Origin: a virus
IMG/VR virus record: IMGVR_UViG_3300023113_000001
Span: 1 to 41,386 of that record
Length of the DNA: 41,386 bases
Reading direction: 5' to 3' (one strand)
Within the stretch, counting starts at the first letter, position 1. Every line of letters starts with the position of its first letter. The notes under the pieces were generated by a model. That model worked only from the letters and a program-made list of their open reading frames with translations, was not told the origin of the DNA and searched no databases. Positions 5,352 through 41,266 of the stretch are shown here, piece after piece. Both the position numbers and the translations under genes were made by a program.

Positions 5352-5687
5352 ATGGGTAGCAGCATGGATTTCGAGCGTCCGTGGGAGCGCGCCGAGCGTG
5401 ACGATATTGCCAACAAGGCTGGCATCAAGAGACTCAAGGAGGCAATGAAGGCCAAGCTACTTGCAAGCCGCCACAAAGGGCGTAGCGGATGGCAGAACAA
5501 AGAAGACTGCTCACAAGAACATTTGAGCAGGCTCCTGCGAGAACACGTCGAAAAAGGAGACCCTGTCGATGTCGCCAACTTCTGCATGATGCTCCATGCG
5601 CGCGGCGAGCGCATCCTCCCATGCCTTGAAGGTTCTGGCCGGAGTCTCGCGGATGCCAACTCAAATCATTCAGGAGAAACCCCATGA
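5352..5687 (+). CDS. Unknown protein bracketed by inverted repeats (111 aa)
   Basis: Starts at MGSSMDFE with AGGAG seven bases before the ATG. The protein is helical and basic in its first half (KRLKEAMKAKLLAS), with a WQNKEDCSQEHLSRLLREHVEKGD segment common to small phage proteins of unknown role. A 63-bp gap precedes it, unlike its tightly packed neighbours, and copies of the dispersed motif flank it, so it may be a later insertion. Confidence 0.75.
   Translation: MGSSMDFERPWERAERDDIANKAGIKRLKEAMKAKLLASRHKGRSGWQNKEDCSQEHLSRLLREHVEKGDPVDVANFCMMLHARGERILPCLEGSGRSLADANSNHSGETP
5643..5660 (+). repeat. Dispersed motif, copy A
   Basis: AGTCTCGCGGATGCCAAC, identical over 18 bases to the minus-strand copy at 35272-35289. 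It lies near the 3' end of the preceding gene, 23 bases before the start codon at 5684, with AGGAG between. Confidence 0.8.
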
Positions 5688-6119: not shown

Positions 6120-6305
6120 ATGCCGCGCACCGCCGCCAGGATCACGCAAGCCGACATCGCCCGCACTGTGCGCGCGGTAGCACAAGCGCGCGTGCGGGCG
6201 GTGGTTGAGGTCGCGCCGGACGGAACCATCCGCGTCCTGATGGGCGACGACGCCCAACGCCCTGCGCCGATCAAGGTTGAGCCGGAAGAGGAGATCGTGC
6301 TGTGA
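6120..6305 (+). CDS. Small HTH-like protein before the integrase (61 aa)
   Basis: Starts MPRTAARITQADIARTVRAV. Residues 8-25 could form a helix-turn-helix, followed by two beta strands (AVVEVAPDGTIRVL). It overlaps the integrase by TGATG. Short proteins of this type regularly precede integrase genes in alphaproteobacterial prophages; an excisionase-like role is possible but not shown. Confidence 0.7.
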   Translation: MPRTAARITQADIARTVRAVAQARVRAVVEVAPDGTIRVLMGDDAQRPAPIKVEPEEEIVL

Positions 6306-7411
6306 TGGAGCCCATGCCCCGTCCTCGCTATCCTTACACTCACAGAGAAACCAGCCGGCACGGAAAGCCAGTCTGGTACTTCCGACGCGGCAAGGGCAAG
6401 CGCATTCGCCTGCCGGGCGATTACGGCAGCGAGTCGTTCAAGGCGGCTTATGAGGCGGCGCTGACGGGCGAGCCTATCGCCAAGCCTGCCGGAAGCAGCG
6501 CGGGCACCTTGCGATGGCTATGGGACCGCTACAGGGACAGCCAGGCATGGTCTGACCTATCCGTCGCAACCCGCCGCCAGCGCGAAAACATCATGAAGCA
6601 TGTCCTCGAAAACTCAGGCGACAAGGCGCTGTCTCTGGTGACGAGGAAGGCCATCATCGCGGGGCTCGACAGGCGCAAGAAGACGCCAGCCATGGCTAGG
6701 CATTTTCTGGAAACCATGCGCGGCCTGTTTATGTGGGGCGTCTATTCAGATCACGCGAAAGCCGACCCGACGTTTGGGATTAAAGCGTCCAAGCCGGCGA
6801 CAGACGGCCACCACACATGGACGGATGAGGAGTGCGACAGGTTCGAAGCCCGGTGGCCGATAGGAACGCGAGAGCGCCTTGCCTTTGACATCCTGCTTTA
6901 TACGGGCTTTCGGAGAGGCGACGCCGCGCGCTTTGGCCGCCAGAACGTTCGCAATGGCCTGATCCACATCACGACCGAAAAGAGCAAGGGCAAGGTAACG
7001 GTCATCCTGCCGCTGCTCCAGCCGCTCGCGGATTCAATCAATGCCACGCGCACCGGGGATCTGGCTTTCATCGCCAAGGCTGACGGTGCCGGTATGAGCA
7101 AGGAAGGATTTGGCAACTGGTTCGCGGAGGCGTGCGTTGCCGCTGGCGTGCCAGGAAGGGCGCACGGTCTCAGGAAGGCAGGCGCGACCAGAGCGGCGAA
7201 TCGCGGCGCATCCGATGCCCAGCTTGACGCCATCTTCGGCTGGAGCGGGCGCGGCATGGCTGCGCTCTACACGAAGAAAGCTAACCGGCAGAAGCTGGCC
7301 GAGGAGGCCGCATCGTTCCTGATGCCGGAACCGAAACCGAACACCTATTCCCGCACTTTGTTATCAGGTGCGGGGATGGGCTCGAAAACCGATGGAGATT
7401 CAACCCCTTAG
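6305..7411 (+). CDS. int: Tyrosine-type integrase
   Basis: A 368-residue recombinase starting MEPMPRPRYPYTH; the ATG at 6305 overlaps the previous stop and is preferred to the GTG at 6302. An N-terminal arm-binding segment and a core-binding domain (residues about 65-165) precede the catalytic domain. Visible active-site elements are Arg in TGFRRGDA (~204), basic KSKGKVTVI, HGLRK (~295), Trp in FGWSG in place of the usual second His, and the Tyr nucleophile in ALYTKKA. It catalyses site-specific integration and excision and is transcribed with the early plus operon. The attachment site is probably nearby but I could not identify a core. Confidence 0.95.
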   Translation: MEPMPRPRYPYTHRETSRHGKPVWYFRRGKGKRIRLPGDYGSESFKAAYEAALTGEPIAKPAGSSAGTLRWLWDRYRDSQAWSDLSVATRRQRENIMKHVLENSGDKALSLVTRKAIIAGLDRRKKTPAMARHFLETMRGLFMWGVYSDHAKADPTFGIKASKPATDGHHTWTDEECDRFEARWPIGTRERLAFDILLYTGFRRGDAARFGRQNVRNGLIHITTEKSKGKVTVILPLLQPLADSINATRTGDLAFIAKADGAGMSKEGFGNWFAEACVAAGVPGRAHGLRKAGATRAANRGASDAQLDAIFGWSGRGMAALYTKKANRQKLAEEAASFLMPEPKPNTYSRTLLSGAGMGSKTDGDSTP

Positions 7412-12994: not shown

Positions 12995-13420
12995 TCAGGT
13001 GCCCTTGATCGGGCGGGTGGTGGTGATGCGACCATAGATCGACACAACCATCCCGATGCCGCTGGACACGGCCACAAGGCCCGTCACAAGCGTCTGTGCA
13101 TCCTCAGGGGATAGGGCATAGCCGAGCAGGCCGAGAACCGGCGCAAGGCCCGCCACAAGGGCGCCCCAGATGGCGTGGGACTGATACCAGGCGACAGGGG
13201 TTGAGAGCTTGGCGACTTCGGGCTGGGCAAGCACGCGCTCGATGACCTGAGCGGCGATGGCGTCAGCGTCGAGCGTCACGGGCGGGGCGATGGGCGGGGC
13301 CATCGGGGAAGCGTCCTGCGCCTTGGCGATGGTCTTGACGACATCGCGGGCAACGGGCGGAATGACCTGTTCGATAGCGCCGTTGACGGCCCCGGCGATG
13401 ATGGCTGCAAGGTTGATCAC
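12995..13420 (-). CDS. Holin-like membrane protein (141 aa)
   Basis: An N-terminal hydrophobic helix (LAAIIAGAVNGAIEQVI), a proline- and alanine-rich linker, and two membrane segments near the end (AIWGALVAGLAPVLGLLGY and TLVTGLVAVSSGIGMVVSI) with a short basic tail. Size, topology and the 4-base overlap with the endolysin gene point to a holin that releases endolysin to the cell wall. Holin families diverge strongly, so the assignment rests on context. Confidence 0.7.
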   Translation of the reverse strand: MINLAAIIAGAVNGAIEQVIPPVARDVVKTIAKAQDASPMAPPIAPPVTLDADAIAAQVIERVLAQPEVAKLSTPVAWYQSHAIWGALVAGLAPVLGLLGYALSPEDAQTLVTGLVAVSSGIGMVVSIYGRITTTRPIKGT

Positions 13421-14208
13421 TTCGGGCTCCTACGGAACAGGTTGGCGAGGAAGGATGCGAACTGCGCCCATGGGCCGGGCTCACTGGCGGGGGCTTGAAA
13501 CGTCCCGTCATTGCGGGTGGGTTCGTTCTTGACCGGAGCGGGCGGCTCAGCTTTGGAAGTCGCCGCAAGCTGTCGATCTTGCGCGGATTTTTCTTTTTGA
13601 TCGGGTTTTGATTTGCCATAGCCGGCTTCGACAAGCGCCGCCTGGAACTCCTTGGCGTAGGTCGCAATCAGCGACGCCTTGTCTGTCCCGTTGATGATGC
13701 GCCGCGCGTTGACGTAATCGGGCGGGCTCTTGGCGAGATAGTCGCGATTTGCCTTGCCGGTGTAGGCGCCCGTGGACATGCCCCAGACCAGCACCTTTGC
13801 GGCGATGCCGGGCTCTTCGACCGTCTGCGGCTCTTTCAGCAGATCGAGGCCAAGCGCCTTGCCCGCCTTGACGTAGTTCGCGCGGCCCGTAAGTTGCACA
13901 TAACCGCGCCCGGCAAACTTGGCGCCGTCGCCAGCCTGCACGTTGCCAAGCTCGGCTGCCTTGATAGGGCGCGAGCCGTGCTTGTCGTACATGCGCTTGA
14001 AATAGTCTTCCCCGCCAAGCTCCTTCATATGCTTCCACTGCGCCGTCTCATGGTGCGCGGTAGCCAGAGCGTAGGCTGCATACGACAGCGGCCAGTCAGC
14101 CGCGATAATGGTGTCTAGCAGCACCTCCATCCGGTAGATTTGCTGCGGAGTAACGGAGCCGTTGAACAGCTCGCGACGGATCGCCGCGAAGAACTTCGCC
14201 TTGTCCAT
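13417..14208 (-). CDS. GH19-type endolysin
   Basis: A 263-residue protein with a chitinase-19-like lysozyme domain in residues 1-185. The catalytic Glu is in ATAHHETAQW (~54), and YVQLTGRANY, the short helical blocks and ARRIINGTD are family hallmarks. The last ~75 residues are a low-complexity, proline-rich tail with no known cell-wall domain. GH19 endolysins of phages cleave peptidoglycan glycan strands. No signal peptide, so export depends on the holin. Confidence 0.92.
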   Translation of the reverse strand: MDKAKFFAAIRRELFNGSVTPQQIYRMEVLLDTIIAADWPLSYAAYALATAHHETAQWKHMKELGGEDYFKRMYDKHGSRPIKAAELGNVQAGDGAKFAGRGYVQLTGRANYVKAGKALGLDLLKEPQTVEEPGIAAKVLVWGMSTGAYTGKANRDYLAKSPPDYVNARRIINGTDKASLIATYAKEFQAALVEAGYGKSKPDQKEKSAQDRQLAATSKAEPPAPVKNEPTRNDGTFQAPASEPGPWAQFASFLANLFRRSPK

Positions 14209-31735: not shown

Positions 31736-33181
31736 TTAAACCGTTTTCCATGCGCCGGCATCCTCTTCGTCGTCGCGGCGGTCGTAGCGGTCGCGGCGGG
31801 GCTTTTCGGTGGGACGCGGGTTCAAGCCGGCCTGCATTTTGTCCAGCAACTGACCGACAAGCCCGAGCGCATCCACTTGGTCGTCATGGACGCCAGCGGG
31901 GAACCTCAGGCACTCGGATATGAGATCGGCCTTCCACGGCGCGTCAGGGCTGATGTACAGCCCTTCCATCGCCATACGGCCTCGGATCGACTGTGCGCGA
32001 ACTGACTTGTCGCCGCGCGTTGGGAACTGTTCGCGGACGCCGTAAGCCTTGCGCTCGCGTGCCCGCTTTTCGAGGAACGGCCCGACGCCTGACTTGATCT
32101 GCCCTTGCTCTTCAGCCCAAGCGATAGGCTTCCACTTCAAGACCAGATCGCAATAGGCTTCCACCCATTCGTCAGACGAAGCCTGCTTGCGCCAGAGGTC
32201 GAGCAGATGCATCCGGCCATCAGGGTCAACACCGACAACCACATGAACCGTGTAGTCACCGCCTTGCGATGTGACGGCGTAATCTGAGCCGCCATAGATA
32301 CGCATCTGATCGCGCGGTGGCGGCGTCATGGTCTTGAACCATTCGGCGCGGAAATAGTCGCCTTCGTCTGGCGTCGGCTGCTGCTGGTACAGCGCGGACC
32401 AAAGCCGCGTATCCCGCTTTGCATCCGCCCGCATTTCAGGCGTGAACCACTCAGGCCACAGAGCCTCGCCAGGAACGCGTCCGAGCGGATCGTCAAGCCC
32501 TGCCTCCATCGGCAGTGACACAACCCGCCAGCGGGCGCCTTCCTCGGCCAGCAAGCGCCCGGCTAGATCGTCCTCATGCCATCGCGTCTGGATCAAGATG
32601 ACCGCAGCGCTCGGCTTCAATCGCGTGCCGAGGTCGAACTTGTACCAATCCCACTGCTTGTCGCGGATGAGCTTGCTGTCTGCGTCCTCGCGCGAGCGAA
32701 CCGGATCGTCAATGATGGCAAGGTCAGCGCGGCGCCCTGTGATCGAGCCGCCGACACCAGCCGCGTAATACTCGCCTTCCTCGTCAGTCTCCCAGCGGCC
32801 AGCGGCCTTGTTATCGCCCGACACGCCGAACCCGAGCAGCGACTGGTGGTCAGCCACCAGATTGCGGACCTTGCGGCCCCAGCGCTCGGCCAGTTCTGCC
32901 GTATGCGAGGCCGCGATGATCGAGCGATGCGCGCCTTGCGACAGATACCAAGGCGGGAACAGCACGCTTCCGTATGTGGACTTCGCGGAGCCTGGGGGCA
33001 GGAACAGCATAAGCCGATCCGTTTCGCCTCTTGCTACGCTCTCAAGTTCCTTGACGATCAGTTGGTGATGCCGGGCGGGCTCGTAGCCGCATTCCCTGCA
33101 CCATTCAGTGAGTGACGCCCTTGCGCGTCGGCGGCGCAGCAACTCCTGCGCTGCCTGCGCTGGCGATAAGGGCAAGCTCAT
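31736..33181 (-). CDS. Terminase large subunit (481 aa)
   Basis: ATPase: Walker A at LPPGSAKST (61-69) and Walker B at LAIIDDP (154-160). Nuclease: Asp in IYGGSDYAV, Glu in WAEEQGQI and Asp in HDDQVDALG are the expected RNase-H-fold ligands. The motor cuts and pumps DNA through the portal. The 77-base overlap with the small-subunit gene is large but common in this family. The circular or permuted contig suggests headful packaging, as in P22, but that is inference. Confidence 0.96.
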   Translation of the reverse strand: MSLPLSPAQAAQELLRRRRARASLTEWCRECGYEPARHHQLIVKELESVARGETDRLMLFLPPGSAKSTYGSVLFPPWYLSQGAHRSIIAASHTAELAERWGRKVRNLVADHQSLLGFGVSGDNKAAGRWETDEEGEYYAAGVGGSITGRRADLAIIDDPVRSREDADSKLIRDKQWDWYKFDLGTRLKPSAAVILIQTRWHEDDLAGRLLAEEGARWRVVSLPMEAGLDDPLGRVPGEALWPEWFTPEMRADAKRDTRLWSALYQQQPTPDEGDYFRAEWFKTMTPPPRDQMRIYGGSDYAVTSQGGDYTVHVVVGVDPDGRMHLLDLWRKQASSDEWVEAYCDLVLKWKPIAWAEEQGQIKSGVGPFLEKRARERKAYGVREQFPTRGDKSVRAQSIRGRMAMEGLYISPDAPWKADLISECLRFPAGVHDDQVDALGLVGQLLDKMQAGLNPRPTEKPRRDRYDRRDDEEDAGAWKTV

Positions 33182-33542
33182 CGTCGGTCATGGCTTTCGG
33201 ATCTGACTTGTGGGTGCTCTCGCGCTTCTCAACGCGGACACCAGCGAGGACGCCCTTTTCGCGGATGGCCGCGATGGCGGCTGCATACTGCCCTGCTGCA
33301 AGCGCCTTTTCGCGGACAGCCTCGGCTTCTTCGATGAGGCTTGCTGCCGTCACTTCGGCCTTAATCGCGCTGCGTTCCTGCAACTCGGCCACGCGAGCCT
33401 GCACCTTGTCATTCCTTGTCAGGCGTGACGCATTGGGCTCGCTGGGCTCGTATCCTGCGTTCTGGTAGGCTTCCGACTGGCTCTTGCCCTTTGCAAGCTC
33501 TTGGGCGAAGCGCTCATGGCGGGGGTTAGCGAGGGCGGGCAT
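33105..33542 (-). CDS. Terminase small subunit (145 aa)
   Basis: Opens with NPRHERFAQELAKGKSQSEAYQNAGY, the signature of the Terminase_2-type small subunits with an N-terminal HTH (residues about 5-50), then a helical oligomerisation region and a Lys-poor C-terminus. It recognises the pac or cos site, often located in or near its own gene. Confidence 0.92.
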   Translation of the reverse strand: MPALANPRHERFAQELAKGKSQSEAYQNAGYEPSEPNASRLTRNDKVQARVAELQERSAIKAEVTAASLIEEAEAVREKALAAGQYAAAIAAIREKGVLAGVRVEKRESTHKSDPKAMTDDELALIASAGSAGVAAPPTRKGVTH

Positions 33543-33831
33543 CGCGCTTGATGTTCTCTTCGATCAGTCGCGGCAGGCCGGACACAGTCTCGTCAAGGTA
33601 CTCATGGTCAAGAACGTGCCAAAAGGCGATTGTCCGCTGGGGTCCAGCAAAAAACGAACAGGTCCGCCAAGCGCTAACAGCGCCATCGCCGCCTAGCGCA
33701 ATACTGACCCCTGTCGCGCCCGCATCTTCCATGCGCTTGATCACATCGGCGCAGCTTATGGCCTGATCGCCGTTGATGAACGCGATTTCGGGGTCGGCCA
33801 TTTTGCTGGTACGCAATTTTTCCTCAGTCAT
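33526..33831 (-). CDS. Unknown protein before the terminase (101 aa)
   Basis: Overlaps the preceding small gene by ATGA and the terminase small subunit by 17 bases. Alpha/beta composition (EIAFINGDQAISCADVIKRMEDAGATGVSIALG) of a small folded domain. No family recognised. An accessory packaging role is suggested by position. Confidence 0.7.
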   Translation of the reverse strand: MTEEKLRTSKMADPEIAFINGDQAISCADVIKRMEDAGATGVSIALGGDGAVSAWRTCSFFAGPQRTIAFWHVLDHEYLDETVSGLPRLIEENIKRDARPR

Positions 33832-33971
33832 CCCGACACCGCCACGCCGCCCTTGAGGAAGCGCAGCACCTTCTCGGCCTCGCGCAGCACGTCATCAATT
33901 GTCGCGTCTGCGGGCTTGCGCTTGTCGGCTAGCATCATGGCCTGCATGCGAAGCTGTTCGTCAGGGGTCAT
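33828..33971 (-). CDS. Small unknown protein (47 aa)
   Basis: Starts MTPDEQLRMQAMMLADKRKP and ends FLKGGVAVSG. ATGA overlap with the next gene is the main support. Helical and charged. It is the first frame of the late operon after the leader terminator. Confidence 0.6.
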   Translation of the reverse strand: MTPDEQLRMQAMMLADKRKPADATIDDVLREAEKVLRFLKGGVAVSG

Positions 33972-33989
33972 GGGATGTGTCCTGAATAC

Positions 33990-34022
33990 AAAAGCCCCGC
34001 CATGCCGGAGCAGAGGGCGGGG
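33990..34022 (-). terminator. Intrinsic terminator in the late leader
   Basis: On the minus strand, CCCCGCC-14 nt-GGCGGGG is followed by CTTTTG. It separates the leader downstream of the NusG-like gene from the late genes. The U-run is short (four), so leakiness or regulation is plausible. Confidence 0.8.
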
Positions 34023-34511
34023 GCGCCCTTCAAGCGGCGCAAGCTAATCGACAAGGCCGGGCTCGATACCGGCTTGGCAGTTTTTATCAGGAATCTGGCC
34101 TAGGCTTTCGCCCCCGGCTTCAGACGGCGCTATGGCTACCTGACCGTCTACCCTTAGGCTCGCCGGCCACCCGGCTTCCTGCCTTGTCCTCTCAGCGTGT
34201 CCATCCACGCCGCTTGTCGAACTTGATGGCCCCACTTAACCGCCAGTGTCTAGAATGGCGGCAAGCACCTTGTGCTCAAGCGATGGCTTGGCGATGTAGA
34301 CCTCTTGCGAGCACATCGTCAGTGGCCGGGGCCGACCTCAGAAACTCAATATCAGGGCTTCCACCTGATGCCCGTGTTGGCTGTCACGGTCTGGCGCGAA
34401 CGCCGAAGCCTGATGCCGAAGCAGAGCAGGAACCCAAATCGTGTTGTTCCATTGCGTCGCAGTCAGGGTGCGGATGACCGCTGCCCCAACCGCGCCGACT
34501 TCCCGCACAAC
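34023..34511 (-). other. Long leader after the NusG-like gene, no convincing gene
   Basis: 489 bases without a good gene, in a genome where neighbours nearly all overlap. In the frame following the NusG-like stop there are three short open stretches (GTG 34508-34338, ATG 34316-34236, GTG 34235-34044) separated by single stops. A second frame gives AVKWGHQVRQAAWMDTL across the stop at 34236, so a frameshifted gene remnant is possible. A GGCGGTTAAGTGG string at 34232-34244 partly resembles the ops element of RfaH (9 of 13). May be a regulatory leader RNA. Confidence 0.5.
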
Positions 34512-35207
34512 TTACGCTGCCGGCCTGATTTGGTCAAGCGTCACGCGCACTTTCGTTGCGGCCCCGAACATCTTCATCAGCAAAATCACGCGCTCATCGT
34601 CGCCCGCGTGCAAGACTGTTGCGTGAAAGCCTTCCCAGAGGTCATCAACCACCAGCACGGTATCGCCCGCCTTGAAATGCTCGGACGCCTTCTTGGCGAT
34701 GCGGGTGCGCTCGGCCTCGCTGATGGCTTGAGACTTGGCCTCGTCCCACACGCCCGAAGCCTGCATGTCGCTAATGGCATAGACCAGCCCGCCGCCAACA
34801 AACGGGATGTTGCCGTTGTCCAGCGTCAGCGGGCGCCCCCAGAGGCAGGAGTTGAGCGACTTGCTTGCCCCCTGCTTCAAGCCGACGAAGACGTACCTAG
34901 GAAACAGCGGCGTGTGCCGGATGGTCTTTGTCCTGCCGATGCGAACCCACTTAGTCACGACGGGGCAATACGCGGCATAGCCATCGCGCTCTAGCTGGGC
35001 AACAGCGGCCATCTCCTGCTTCGGGCCGGTGTGCATGATGGTCCAGCGCGCAGGGCGCTCGGCGGCCTCCGGAAGGCGCTCAGCAAGCCTTGCCGGGCGC
35101 GGCGGGCCGATCAGTTCCTTGACGGGCCGGTTCTTGTAGCTCGACGCAACGCTATGGGTTTTGGCTGACGGCTTGTTCCAGAATTTGTGCATTGCGCCTT
35201 TCATCAT
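34512..35207 (-). CDS. NusG/RfaH-like transcription factor (231 aa)
   Basis: After a basic ~50-residue extension, an NGN domain (RWTIMHTGPKQEMAAVAQL, GYAAYCPV, then PLFPRYVFVGL; about residues 54-160) and a C-terminal KOW domain (FKAGDTVLVVDDLWEGFHAT, ERVILLMKMFG, VTLDQIRPAA). NusG paralogues bind polymerase and suppress pausing or Rho termination at specific operons. Start chosen at ATG 35207 with GGAG before it; a second ATG follows immediately. It is the last gene before a 489-base leader and the packaging genes, the position expected of a late antiterminator. Confidence 0.88.
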   Translation of the reverse strand: MMKGAMHKFWNKPSAKTHSVASSYKNRPVKELIGPPRPARLAERLPEAAERPARWTIMHTGPKQEMAAVAQLERDGYAAYCPVVTKWVRIGRTKTIRHTPLFPRYVFVGLKQGASKSLNSCLWGRPLTLDNGNIPFVGGGLVYAISDMQASGVWDEAKSQAISEAERTRIAKKASEHFKAGDTVLVVDDLWEGFHATVLHAGDDERVILLMKMFGAATKVRVTLDQIRPAA

Positions 35208-35243
35208 CAGTTCTCCATCGTTCGCTTGCGGCCTGGCTTGCTC
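35208..35243 (-). other. Possible 12-codon leader peptide before NusG-like gene
   Basis: ATG at about 35243 opens a frame MSKPGRKRTMEN whose stop overlaps the NusG-like start (TGATG). It carries the GGAG used by that start. Could couple translation; too short to judge coding. Confidence 0.35.
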
Positions 35244-35271
35244 ATGTCTGATCCTTTGGGTTTTGATTTTG

Positions 35272-35289
35272 GTTGGCATCCGCGAGACT
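35272..35289 (-). repeat. Dispersed motif, copy B
   Basis: AGTCTCGCGGATGCCAAC on the minus strand, identical to copy A, followed by CAAAATCAAAAC. It lies in the gap between the gene ending at 35295 and the NusG-like gene. Confidence 0.8.
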
Positions 35290-35294
35290 ACTGG

Positions 35295-35726
35295 TCATGC
35301 GGCGTCGCCGGGGCCGAGGCCAAGGAAATCGACCTTGAAATGCCGCAGATAGCTCCGCTTTGCGTCCTCACGCCCTGCCGCAATCCGCCGTTCAATGTTG
35401 CGCTGGCGTTGGATGTTGACCGCCGCCGACAGGCTGAGAGAACGGGAGCTTGCGAGATCGGGGTCTAGGCTACCGACGTGCCAGCGCTTCATGCGCTCGC
35501 GCTCCTCGGCCTCCCAATCCTTGCTGAACACGCGCTTGCAGACGCTGGTAATCCACTCGCCTTCCGTGGTCCCACCTGACATAGGCACCTGAGCGGACGT
35601 GCCGAGTAAATCGGGCGAAAACCCAGAGCCGACGCCGGCTTTTGTCGCCGCCTCTCTCGCCACTACAGGCAGCGCAACCGGAGCCGCGCCCAACAGCCTG
35701 AGAAATCCTCTGCGCCCTACGCTCAC
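35295..35726 (-). CDS. Small protein with Tat-like N-terminus (143 aa)
   Basis: GTG start in a GTGA overlap with the DUF1376 gene, behind GGGAGGG. Residues 1-25 (SVGRRGFLRLLGAAPVALPV) contain RRGFL and a hydrophobic stretch ending ALPVVA, matching a twin-arginine signal. The mature part has a WITSVCKRVFSKDWEAEERERM helix and no cofactor motif. An exported folded protein in a replication and regulation block is odd; the motif may be coincidental. Confidence 0.65.
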   Translation of the reverse strand: MSVGRRGFLRLLGAAPVALPVVAREAATKAGVGSGFSPDLLGTSAQVPMSGGTTEGEWITSVCKRVFSKDWEAEERERMKRWHVGSLDPDLASSRSLSLSAAVNIQRQRNIERRIAAGREDAKRSYLRHFKVDFLGLGPGDAA

Positions 35727-36637
35727 GCCGCCCTCCCTTCCCACTGGTCGAACTGAGCCGCCATGTCGTCTACGGCTACGGGCAGAGCGGGCGGGAACTC
35801 GCTCTCAAACCACCAGCCGTCCGCCCGATGCTCCTTTGAGGTCACAGCGGTCGCGGTGGGCTTGCCGATGGCCTTGCGGTAATCGCGCCATGCCCACCAT
35901 GCCTCGCTGTCCTGCTTGACGAAGACGCGGCCATTGTCAGACGGGCCGGCCTGGGGCGTGGCCGTGGCGAGCTTTAACCCGGCATTGACGCACCACTCAG
36001 GCTCGCAGCCCTGCCAGCCGCGCATCATCATCAGGTCAGCGGCCTTGTCGGGCTCCGCGATCTGGGCGAATTGCTTGGCGAGAAGCAGCGCCATGTGCGG
36101 GTTGAGCGGGGATTTCTTTTTCCGCCGATGGTCGATGACGGCCTTTGCCCGGTCCTCGGACAAGACAGCCATCAGGGTTTCCAAAATCTGCGCGTGTTCG
36201 GGCCGCGCCTTGGCGCGTTCTACAACAGGAACTTTAGTTTCTGTTGTAGAAGGTGATTGTGATTGTGATTGGCATTCCTGCGGCATATGCAACGGCATTG
36301 CCGCAGCATCTGCATCTGCAATGCCGGGCTTATGCCAACGCTTTGCCGCTTTCTCTTTCGCCTTCTCGCTGATGTCGCGGGCGGCCTGCAATTCCTCCTC
36401 GATGCGGGCGTGCTTCCAGCCCTCATCAAACATGTCGAACAGCGTCTCGCGCGCATCCGCCCACTCGTCGGGCGACATGCGGCAAATCCTGGCGAGCCGG
36501 CGATCCTCGTTGGGAAGCCCGCCATTCTGCCAATAGTGCATGATGAGCAGGAGATAGGCTCCATGCTCTGCGGCGCTCAGGTGCCCCGTGTCGGCCAGAT
36601 AGTCGGCCACATAGAGCGGCATCCATGCTCGGCTCAT
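35723..36637 (-). CDS. DUF1376 replication-associated protein (304 aa)
   Basis: The N-terminal ~85 residues (WMPLYVADYLADTGHLSAAEHGAYLLLIMHYW, then RRLARICRMSPDEWADA) are the DUF1376/YdaU domain, widespread at the replication position of lambdoid and rhizobial prophages. A charged linker leads to a C-terminal helical region (EAWWAWRDYRKAIGK, WWFESEFPP). Likely the replication initiator or helicase-loading factor; no helicase is encoded, so the host replisome is probably used. Confidence 0.88.
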   Translation of the reverse strand: MSRAWMPLYVADYLADTGHLSAAEHGAYLLLIMHYWQNGGLPNEDRRLARICRMSPDEWADARETLFDMFDEGWKHARIEEELQAARDISEKAKEKAAKRWHKPGIADADAAAMPLHMPQECQSQSQSPSTTETKVPVVERAKARPEHAQILETLMAVLSEDRAKAVIDHRRKKKSPLNPHMALLLAKQFAQIAEPDKAADLMMMRGWQGCEPEWCVNAGLKLATATPQAGPSDNGRVFVKQDSEAWWAWRDYRKAIGKPTATAVTSKEHRADGWWFESEFPPALPVAVDDMAAQFDQWEGRAA

Positions 36638-36990
36638 TTCGCAGGTATCCCGTACTTGGCCTCTAAGCGGGCGAGGCGATGCTGCGGGCCATCAGTTAGG
36701 AACCGCCGGCAATCGACAAAGAAGGCTTGCATGGCCTCTGCCGGCGCCATGTCGAACCACTCGCCGACAAGGCGCTTGTGCGCCATGACGTGATGGAAAA
36801 CCTCTTCGAGATACGCGACCATCTCTCGGCTGCCGAGTGGCGCAGCGATATAGACTGCCAACGGCGCTGGGTTCCCAGTTTGCAATGACGCGAGGCGCGA
36901 GCCGATCGAGTTGGTGATGCCGACCTTGACCGGCCCCACGATGCAGCCGCCGCGCTTAACGCCGATGACGTAAAGCACTGAATCGCTCAT
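36634..36990 (-). CDS. T5orf172/GIY-YIG-like protein 3 (118 aa)
   Basis: LYVIGVKRGGCIVGPVKVGIT, RLASLQTGNPAPLAVY, then E-VFHH and GEWFDM: the compact T5orf172 (MUG113) version of the GIY-YIG fold. One of three paralogues in this operon. Members are linked to DNA binding or nicking, with phage roles poorly known. Confidence 0.85.
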   Translation of the reverse strand: MSDSVLYVIGVKRGGCIVGPVKVGITNSIGSRLASLQTGNPAPLAVYIAAPLGSREMVAYLEEVFHHVMAHKRLVGEWFDMAPAEAMQAFFVDCRRFLTDGPQHRLARLEAKYGIPAK

Positions 36991-38190: not shown

Positions 38191-38660
38191 CACCGCATCT
38201 CCCCAATGAGATCGGGGGAGGCGATCTTGCCGGAGCGAATCATCTTGCGATGAGCCTCCCGCCAGCGCTCGGCGCCGGGGCTGACGGTGACGCGGGGGAT
38301 CGGCGCAAGCCTGATCTGCGGCTTGGCGTCCATCTCGCCCGGCAAATCAGGCAGGCTCACACGCGGCAGTGTGATGCCGGCGCGAACGGGCGCGGGCTTG
38401 TCGGTGTAGGCAGCGATGCCGGCGCGGTCGATTTTCTTGCGAACGCGCTTGGGTAAGGGCTCTGCCTTACCGGCCAGAACGTCGCGTTCGCGCTGCTTCA
38501 CCTGACGATTATGGGCGATCTGAGCCTCATAATAGGCGGGATCAACGGCGGCCCGAACGGTCGTCCGTCCCTTGCGAAAGATGCGCGCGATTTCTCGGAT
38601 GCTCACGCCGCGAGCGCGCATTTCAACGGCTTCGGCGTGCCAAGGCTGGCTGTTCCTCAT
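38190..38660 (-). CDS. HTH protein of unknown family (156 aa)
   Basis: Residues 1-40 form a resolvase/homeodomain-like HTH (MRARGVSIREIARIFRKGRTTVRAAV). The rest is a basic, Pro-rich region with a conserved-looking ending PGAERWREAHRKMIRSGKI. Likely a DNA-binding regulator in the same unit as GcrA. Confidence 0.75.
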   Translation of the reverse strand: MRNSQPWHAEAVEMRARGVSIREIARIFRKGRTTVRAAVDPAYYEAQIAHNRQVKQRERDVLAGKAEPLPKRVRKKIDRAGIAAYTDKPAPVRAGITLPRVSLPDLPGEMDAKPQIRLAPIPRVTVSPGAERWREAHRKMIRSGKIASPDLIGEMR

Positions 38661-39319
38661 GACCGCGCCCCCCTCATGCGTGCCAGCGCAGCGCGAGCAG
38701 ACGCAATTGCGTCCGTCGCCTCGATTTCCGGCTCAGATGGCGGGACCGCGCTTTCCTCGCGCAGCTTGGTGAGAACGCTCAGTTCGGACCGAAGGGCGTC
38801 AAGCTCAAGCTCGTAGTAGCGATGGCGGGCAAGGCGCAAAGCGTCAAAAAGCTCGGAATCAACCGTGCGAACCCGAAGCTTCACAAGGTTGAACAGACGC
38901 GCGCTACCAAATCCAAGTTCAGCAGACAGGGCATCGTATGCGACCGCATAAGTCTCGCCCAAAGTGTCCTGCCGGAACCGTAGGCAAGCCTCTGCCCACT
39001 GCTTTGCAAGCAGCACATGCGGGCCATAAATAACCTCAGGCTCCTGCTCTGCGGGCAAGTCGCCGCGCAAGCTGTCGATAAGCGCCGCCAACTCTCCAGT
39101 CGCACCCGAGAAATCAAACCACTCGCCGTTGAGCCTCCGATCTGCAAATCGCTCATGCAGAGAGCGCTCCAATGCGAGGGTGCCGGGGACAACCGCAAGG
39201 AGTTCCAACGGCTGTGACGACGCCGTTTTCAGCGCACCCAAGCGCGTAGCGGACTTGCCCTTCGTGAAGCCAATCTTCACGTTGCCGCTGGCATTCCTGA
39301 TGAAGTAAATCTGGCTCAT
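38657..39319 (-). CDS. T5orf172/GIY-YIG-like protein 2 (220 aa)
   Basis: IYFIRNASGNVKIGFTKG, RLGALKTASSQPLELLAVVPG, then LERSLHERF and GEWFDF in residues 1-75: the T5orf172-type core. The C-terminal ~140 residues are a separate helical region ending in a coiled-coil-like segment, absent from the two other paralogues. Confidence 0.82.
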   Translation of the reverse strand: MSQIYFIRNASGNVKIGFTKGKSATRLGALKTASSQPLELLAVVPGTLALERSLHERFADRRLNGEWFDFSGATGELAALIDSLRGDLPAEQEPEVIYGPHVLLAKQWAEACLRFRQDTLGETYAVAYDALSAELGFGSARLFNLVKLRVRTVDSELFDALRLARHRYYELELDALRSELSVLTKLREESAVPPSEPEIEATDAIASARAALARMRGARS

Positions 39320-40620: not shown

Positions 40621-40880
40621 CACGCGGCCTCATGCACGTGCGAGGGCTGGGGCGCATCGAACTCCGCGAGATACAGGCTCACGATGGCCTGACGCTCCTG
40701 CGCCTCGGCGGTGTCCTGCTTGTCGCGGTTGCGGATTTCGCGAATGGCTTGGCCGAGCGCGGTTTTGCAATAGCCGGCGCTCTTGGCTTCGGCGTAGACC
40801 TCGCGAACGTCAGCCTTGATCTCATCGATCGCGGCCAACAGGTCGAGGATGCGCTCCATGGTCTGGCGAAGCTGGCTCAT
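40620..40880 (-). CDS. GapR-like DUF2312 protein (86 aa)
   Basis: QLRQTMERILDLLAAIDEIK, then VREVYAEAKSAGY and AQERQAIVSLYL match the GapR/DUF2312 family almost throughout. Host GapR coats overtwisted DNA in front of replication forks and RNA polymerase and stimulates topoisomerases. A phage copy may support its own replication or perturb host chromosome organisation. The C-terminal 12 residues are phage-specific. Confidence 0.93.
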   Translation of the reverse strand: MSQLRQTMERILDLLAAIDEIKADVREVYAEAKSAGYCKTALGQAIREIRNRDKQDTAEAQERQAIVSLYLAEFDAPQPSHVHEAA

Positions 40881-41266
40881 GCTGCGCGCTCCTGCTTGGC
40901 GGCGGAACGGGCTCGCATTGACGCGCTATGCCGCTGGGCTCGGATCAGCTTCCGCGTCTCCGCGTTCTCGCTGTACGACGAGCCCCACGGGGTGATCTCG
41001 GAGACGCCATGACCGCGCATCTGCTCGACAAACTCGGCAAGCTCGAAGACCGGCGTGAACCACTCGCGGTAAACGCGATACTGGGCGAAGCGCTGATGAA
41101 GGTCGTTCTCTTCGTCAAAGCGCGATGGCCAAAAGGCGATCAGCCTGACCTCGCAAGGCGACCGCATGGCGATTTCCTTGACGCGCTCGTGAGGCATGGT
41201 GGAGCGGCCAATCTTGATCTCGCCGCTCTTGGCTTCGATCAGGTACGTGCATGTCGTGAGTGTCAT
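40877..41266 (-). CDS. T5orf172/GIY-YIG-like protein 1 (129 aa)
   Basis: CTYLIEAKSGEIKIGRSTMPHERVKEIA, then FDEENDLHQRFAQYRVYREWF: a T5orf172-type fold with a His/Arg-rich tail. It is the gene directly after the YdaS-like regulator across the circular junction (ATGA), so it is expressed early under operator control. Confidence 0.83.
   Translation of the reverse strand: MTLTTCTYLIEAKSGEIKIGRSTMPHERVKEIAMRSPCEVRLIAFWPSRFDEENDLHQRFAQYRVYREWFTPVFELAEFVEQMRGHGVSEITPWGSSYSENAETRKLIRAQRHSASMRARSAAKQERAA

Follow-up and report, generated by a model that had tools for sequence, protein, structure and literature searches.

How are the late genes of a temperate phage switched on when the gene at the head of the late operon codes for a NusG-like protein, and at which site would such a protein act? 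The question is raised by an IMG/VR virus record of 41,386 bases (the window, which here means this whole stretch), where an integrase gene at 6302-7411 indicates a temperate phage. The late genes lie on the minus strand, starting near 33971 and reaching as far as the endolysin gene at 13417-14208, and form an operon of about 20 kb. The first late reading frame (predicted, 47 aa, 33828-33971) has its ATG about 20 nt past a candidate intrinsic terminator. The small terminase subunit (TerS, 33105-33542), the large subunit (TerL, 31736-33181) and, after them, a P22-like portal are assigned by Pfam and PHROG matches. In lambda, Q is the last early regulator and acts before the terminator ahead of the late operon.

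Directly upstream of TerS, TerL and the portal, on the same strand, lies a gene for a NusG paralogue of 231 aa (34512-35207, with the start codon at 35207 or 35204). The protein gives a Pfam NusG match of 6.5e-8, with the NGN family PF02357 at 33.4 bits against a cut-off of 22.2, and matches phrog_6386, 'transcription antiterminator', at 4.5e-18. In Pfam and PHROG it matches NusG families only, and no Q protein family. The predicted model consists of an NGN domain and a KOW-type β-barrel CTD, the latter agreeing with NusG CTDs to 1.3-2.0 Å over 53-54 columns. Furthermore, the Foldseek matches of the model include NusG and ops-bound RfaH. In one AlphaFold model the CTD is a β-barrel, not helical; a Pfam KOW match is absent, so that the KOW domain is assigned from structure prediction. 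No relatives of the protein were found in genome contigs, and a scan with the L013 protein likewise found none there. The first-pass annotation had described an NGN-KOW NusG homologue before the packaging genes; Pfam, PHROG and the predicted fold agree with it, and both the paralogue and its position heading the late operon are real.

Two further features were noted around this gene. Three early genes (36634-36990, 38657-39319 and 40877-41266) form a repeated family matching PHROGs 8130 and 4284, the first of them with Pfam MUG113/T5orf172 matches. A 26-nt stretch just upstream of nusG, at about 35264-35289, recurs with 92% identity on the plus strand at 5643-5668, near the integrase.

The nusG gene is followed by a leader of 489 nt, which has no Pfam, PHROG or Rfam match and whose DNA has no match in the phage or plasmid collections. 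A gene in the leader or on its antisense was rejected, with no family match and no counterpart in the nearest relative, L003; a known RNA was rejected with no Rfam match. The earlier view of a leader with no convincing gene is thereby upheld. A gene encoded by the leader in all relatives, which that view had named as contrary to an antitermination role, is not present, since the L003 leader is too short for one. The ops-like string GGCGGTTAAGTGG at 34232-34244, to which the first-pass annotation had pointed, matches ops at 9 of 13 positions, but 9 or more are reached in 75% of dinucleotide-shuffled leaders, and the resemblance is put down to chance. Elsewhere the leader holds a match of 10 of 13, and the best matches to the ops element GGCGGTAGNNTG in the window leader are at chance level. 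The intrinsic terminator proposed before the late genes (about 33990-34022, minus strand; CCCCGCC(14 nt)GGCGGGG-CTTTTGT) is plausible and only moderately convincing, as about 10% of shuffles of the 540-nt stretch contain one of that kind.

The conserved part of the leader sits directly behind nusG. The NusG of L003 is 85% identical to that of the window, and comparison of window positions 33000-36700 with L003 gives one common DNA block, extending from the nusG start codon to GCACCCTGACTGC[GT]ACGCA[AT]TGGAA. The 25-mer element GCACCCTGACTGCGACGCAATGGAA (34447-34471, minus strand; core TGCGACGCAATGG at 34449-34461), the proposed loading site, is identical at 23 of 25 positions, and right after it the identity collapses; in 25-column windows immediately past the stop codon, no more than 9-13 positions are identical. 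Because 30% of the 25-column windows in the coding part of nusG also reach 23 of 25, the element stands out against its noncoding flanks, not against the gene. The core is situated 50 nt past the nusG stop in the window, 41 nt in L003 and 57 nt in L025, which combines a distant NusG with the exact core TGCNACGCANTGG. A search of the viral contigs with the pattern CACCCTGACTGCNACGCANTGGAA returned L003 only. The NusG paralogue of L025 (2914-3417, a frame of 167 aa) appears to have little of the KOW domain.

Leading into the element on the minus strand is a predicted RNA hairpin (34458-34494), composed of an 11-bp outer stem, CGCGGUUGGGG/CCCUGACUGCG, an inner stem, GCGG/CCGC, and a predicted UCAU loop. 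The fold alone is not significant (z -1.9), and a comparable hairpin is predicted in L003. From the element to the terminator, about 425 nt away, the window carries a lineage-specific stretch of about 420 nt (34023-34446, minus strand) that is absent in L003. There only 59 nt separate the nusG stop from the start of the terminator stem, so the further 420 nt or so of the window appear to be an addition or replacement in its lineage. On these sequence comparisons, the long leader is peculiar to the window phage, and leader length is not a conserved feature. The stretch also contains a 26-codon frame at 34236-34316 and, near 34105-34115, GGGCGAAAGCC, a GC-GAAA-GC loop resembling the one of rhizobial phages. 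The terminases of the window and L003 are only 23% identical, which suggests that nusG and its element moved as a cassette from one packaging module to another.

The same gene order is found across viral contigs. At least 9 of 26 viral loci found with the NusG alignment have a large terminase gene, of PHROG 2, 9 or 15, behind nusG. The genomes of phi3LM21 and vB_MseS-P1 have this order too, and their gaps share the 22-mer CAGGGCNAGTGCGNAAGCTATG (core TGC-GNAA-GC-TATG), which an exact pattern search located in 90 viral contigs. A NusG paralogue ends just before the 22-mer, on the same strand, in 85 of the 85 contigs with room upstream, the remaining 5 having less than 120 nt of DNA on that side. 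The invariance of the 22-mer arises by selection, through the exact-pattern search; its linkage to nusG does not. The nusG stop and the 22-mer are separated by 94-159 nt (median 135, 5-95% range 127-152 nt), and the distance from the 22-mer to TerL is loose (983-2037 nt). These contigs are partly related, with 72 unique downstream segments; clustering their TerLs at 35% identity gives 7 groups, and the median identity of their NusGs is 37%. The loop variant TGC-TACA-GC-TATG is present in 29 contigs, with nusG upstream in 26 of the 27 that have room; its occurrence in L259 was rejected as a chance match. Taken together, six named phage genomes and viral contigs numbering well over a hundred show the order of nusG, conserved element, intrinsic terminator and terminase; their terminases are diverse, and this recurrence supports the outline of late antitermination. 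Genes annotated as NusG or antiterminator exist in phi2LM21, phi3LM21, PPF1, Rivra and vB_MseS-P1. Among relatives of the window terminase, NusG is encoded upstream in only 7 of 62, which indicates that phages fill this position in several ways, the NusG factor being one of them. Mwe-JY13 (L007), with the closest terminase among annotated records, carries a GcrA-like gene (6259-6933) in the place of the window nusG, possibly an alternative late regulator.

In the leaders of the rhizobial phages, the element is preceded by a two-stem hairpin, in which an outer stem, CCYTGA/TYAGGG, encloses an inner stem. The inner stem covaries, with 25 two-sided changes against 6.3 in shuffles, and with 33 against 9.7 when the TACA-loop members are added; the outer stem then shows one compensatory change, from C-G to U-A. 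The hairpin loops vary. An intrinsic terminator is located no more than 75 nt downstream of the element in 63 of the 72 unique leaders, compared with 0.85 in shuffles and none in the 63 nusG interiors used as a control; the median gap between the element and the start of the terminator stem is 11 nt. In the other 9 leaders no terminator was seen. With a covariance model the leader is detected immediately after nusG in phi2LM21, phi3LM21, PPF1, Rivra, vB_MseS-P1 and Nsp-JY10, of which phi3LM21 and vB_MseS-P1 belonged to the set used to build the model. Between phi2LM21 and phi3LM21 the leaders are 89.5% identical over about 105 nt, and the NusGs 35%. Rfam has no above-threshold family for the rhizobial leader, and gave only a sub-threshold match on the opposite strand. 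The Nostoc phage Nsp-JY10 (L242, 4596-4665) has the rhizobial-phage leader together with a NusG, so its actual host may be a bacterium associated with the cyanobacterium rather than the host on record.

The rhizobial covariance models R1 and R2 have no significant match at the window element, nor in other NusG clades. The window core, TGC-GAC-GC-AATG, resembles the rhizobial TGC-NNNA-GC-TATG with one loop base fewer, the compared cores being TGC-GAC-GC-AATG and TGC-TAC-GC-ATTG against TGC-TACA-GC-TATG. A kinship between the two elements is suggested by this post hoc resemblance, and their sequence types differ. Each clade seems to own its site, given its clade-specific sequences: in L012-L014 and L148, hairpins with differing arms (CACGAGG/CCTTGTG, GCACGG/CCGTGC) precede an invariant TGCGTTAGCTTT and then a terminator, and L166, L181 and L197 share TTTCACCCGSCGGGYGGCTTGTGTC. 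Across leaders outside the rhizobial set, 12 of 29 have a terminator in the scanned stretch, against 1.45 expected. The idea that all NusG clades share one GC-NNN(N)-GC motif was rejected, as the pattern test is not significant outside the named clades. In another NusG clade, CTAGGGGTTGTG is situated directly past the nusG stop (L219, 1806-1830; L232, 515-540), with the terminase 2.4-3.5 kb off.

We consider it likely that the phage NusG, loaded at the element, takes RNA polymerase past the terminator and on into the late operon. An RfaH- or LoaP-like paralogue would be made from the last early gene, and early transcripts would continue past nusG into the leader, where the intrinsic terminator would end them ahead of the packaging genes. 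When the factor has built up sufficiently, it would load onto polymerase passing the element, that is, a hairpin and then TGC-loop-GC-WWTG (34447-34471 in the window). The loaded factor would remain bound, and the polymerase would thereby pass the terminator, probably Rho sites too, and go on to transcribe the late operon. Loading, readthrough and the window element doing the job of the rhizobial one are steps that we infer. Weighing against this reading are the distance of about 425 nt from the element to an only moderately convincing terminator in the window, the 9 rhizobial leaders with no terminator, the small share of terminase relatives with nusG, and the missing match between the rhizobial models and the window element. 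The initial proposal of NusG-type late antitermination at the leader gains strong comparative support in outline, by recurrence with diverse terminases, and has to be corrected in its details: the conserved element lies elsewhere, at 34447-34471, and the long leader is lineage-specific.

Known systems provide partial precedents. RfaH is recruited by a non-template DNA loop, C3-[GGTA]-G8, with one closing C:G pair, at a consensus pause (PMC5995543), and LoaP needs a small leader RNA hairpin and overcomes a NusA-dependent intrinsic terminator (PMC12691694). The phage leaders would mix RfaH- and LoaP-like parts, namely the hairpin, a GC-loop-GC with a T-G step at pause-like spacing, and the terminator. 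With RfaH/ops of Escherichia coli the phage system shares a NusG paralogue, long operons and a short leader element; the rhizobial loops read C-[GNAA]-G or C-[TACA]-G and that of the window C-[GAC]-G, with the T-G step at ops spacing, a likeness recognised post hoc. It differs in that the window has no ops sequence, the CTD is a β-barrel in the one predicted model, where RfaH has a fold-switching helical CTD, the factor gene lies beside its site, and the element in the phage leaders is preceded by a covarying RNA hairpin and immediately followed by a terminator. LoaP/dfn of Bacillus velezensis likewise combines a NusG paralogue with a leader containing a small RNA hairpin, a pause and an intrinsic terminator. 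However, the LoaP hairpin is of UNCG type, which the window and rhizobial loops are not, and LoaP targets host antibiotic operons rather than phage late genes. The window NusG resembles lambda Q in its position and proposed task; unlike Q, it is a NusG-family protein, its element lies behind its own gene, and no sigma-70 late promoter is found in 33000-36500. Control of the Q type involves a late promoter overlapped by the binding site, and a sigma-dependent pause. PHROG 6386, 'transcription antiterminator', which the window protein matches, and the phage genes annotated NusG are known by annotation only. The protein family is thus already annotated in databases; for a phage NusG at late genes, or for these leaders, no paper was found in the literature searched, outside which most subscription papers lie.

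Other explanations have to be weighed against loading and readthrough. It is unlikely that the terminator merely ends the early operon, with the late operon served by its own promoter and the NusG acting elsewhere, in host take-over, displacement of host NusG or a block of Rho. A terminator suits an operon end and most terminase relatives lack nusG, but a cis element bound to nusG at a fixed distance in all contigs with room for the gene, with covarying RNA and a terminator behind, calls for a local role. No promoter-like site was detected in 33000-36500 in a scan for the sigma-70 consensus only, so that a late promoter of another type could escape, as this explanation would need. A smaller chance is given to the element serving the nusG mRNA itself, as a signal for autoregulation or stabilisation, for example with the protein binding the 3' end of its own message, and having no late-gene role. 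Its place in the 3' untranslated part, at a fixed distance from the stop and with conserved RNA stems, fits such a signal, which needs neither a terminator right behind nor the recurrent place before packaging genes. Some NusG-family proteins favour pausing or Rho termination, and a factor that made polymerase pause or terminate more strongly at the leader would keep the late genes off in the lysogen. This is very improbable, since nusG is last in the early operon and the specialised paralogues with leader elements, RfaH and LoaP, act as antiterminators (PMC2871177; PMC12691694). A packaging (cos/pac) or replication site can hardly be credited: terminase genes are near and an HNH gene adjoins the terminase in many of these phages, but the distance is fixed to nusG and not to terminase, the TerLs are diverse, the stems covary as RNA and a terminator lies behind.

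If NusG loading at the element and readthrough into the late operon are true, the implications go beyond the window phage. On balance we lean towards the view that many phages, above all rhizobial ones, have a late control unrelated to Q, in which a NusG paralogue and its own loading site move together as a cassette, the site being a composite of covarying RNA hairpin and ops-like loop between nusG and terminator that diversifies with the factor clade. Operon choice by NusG paralogues has been studied so far mainly for RfaH and LoaP; cognate factor-site pairs would allow a direct test of whether it depends on the DNA loop, the RNA hairpin or both, for which phi2LM21, phi3LM21 and PPF1, phages of cultivated rhizobia, are named as test systems. 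Phages would then have adopted the NusG family for the job of lambda Q, in a compact, portable module of factor gene, site and terminator that stands beside diverse packaging genes.
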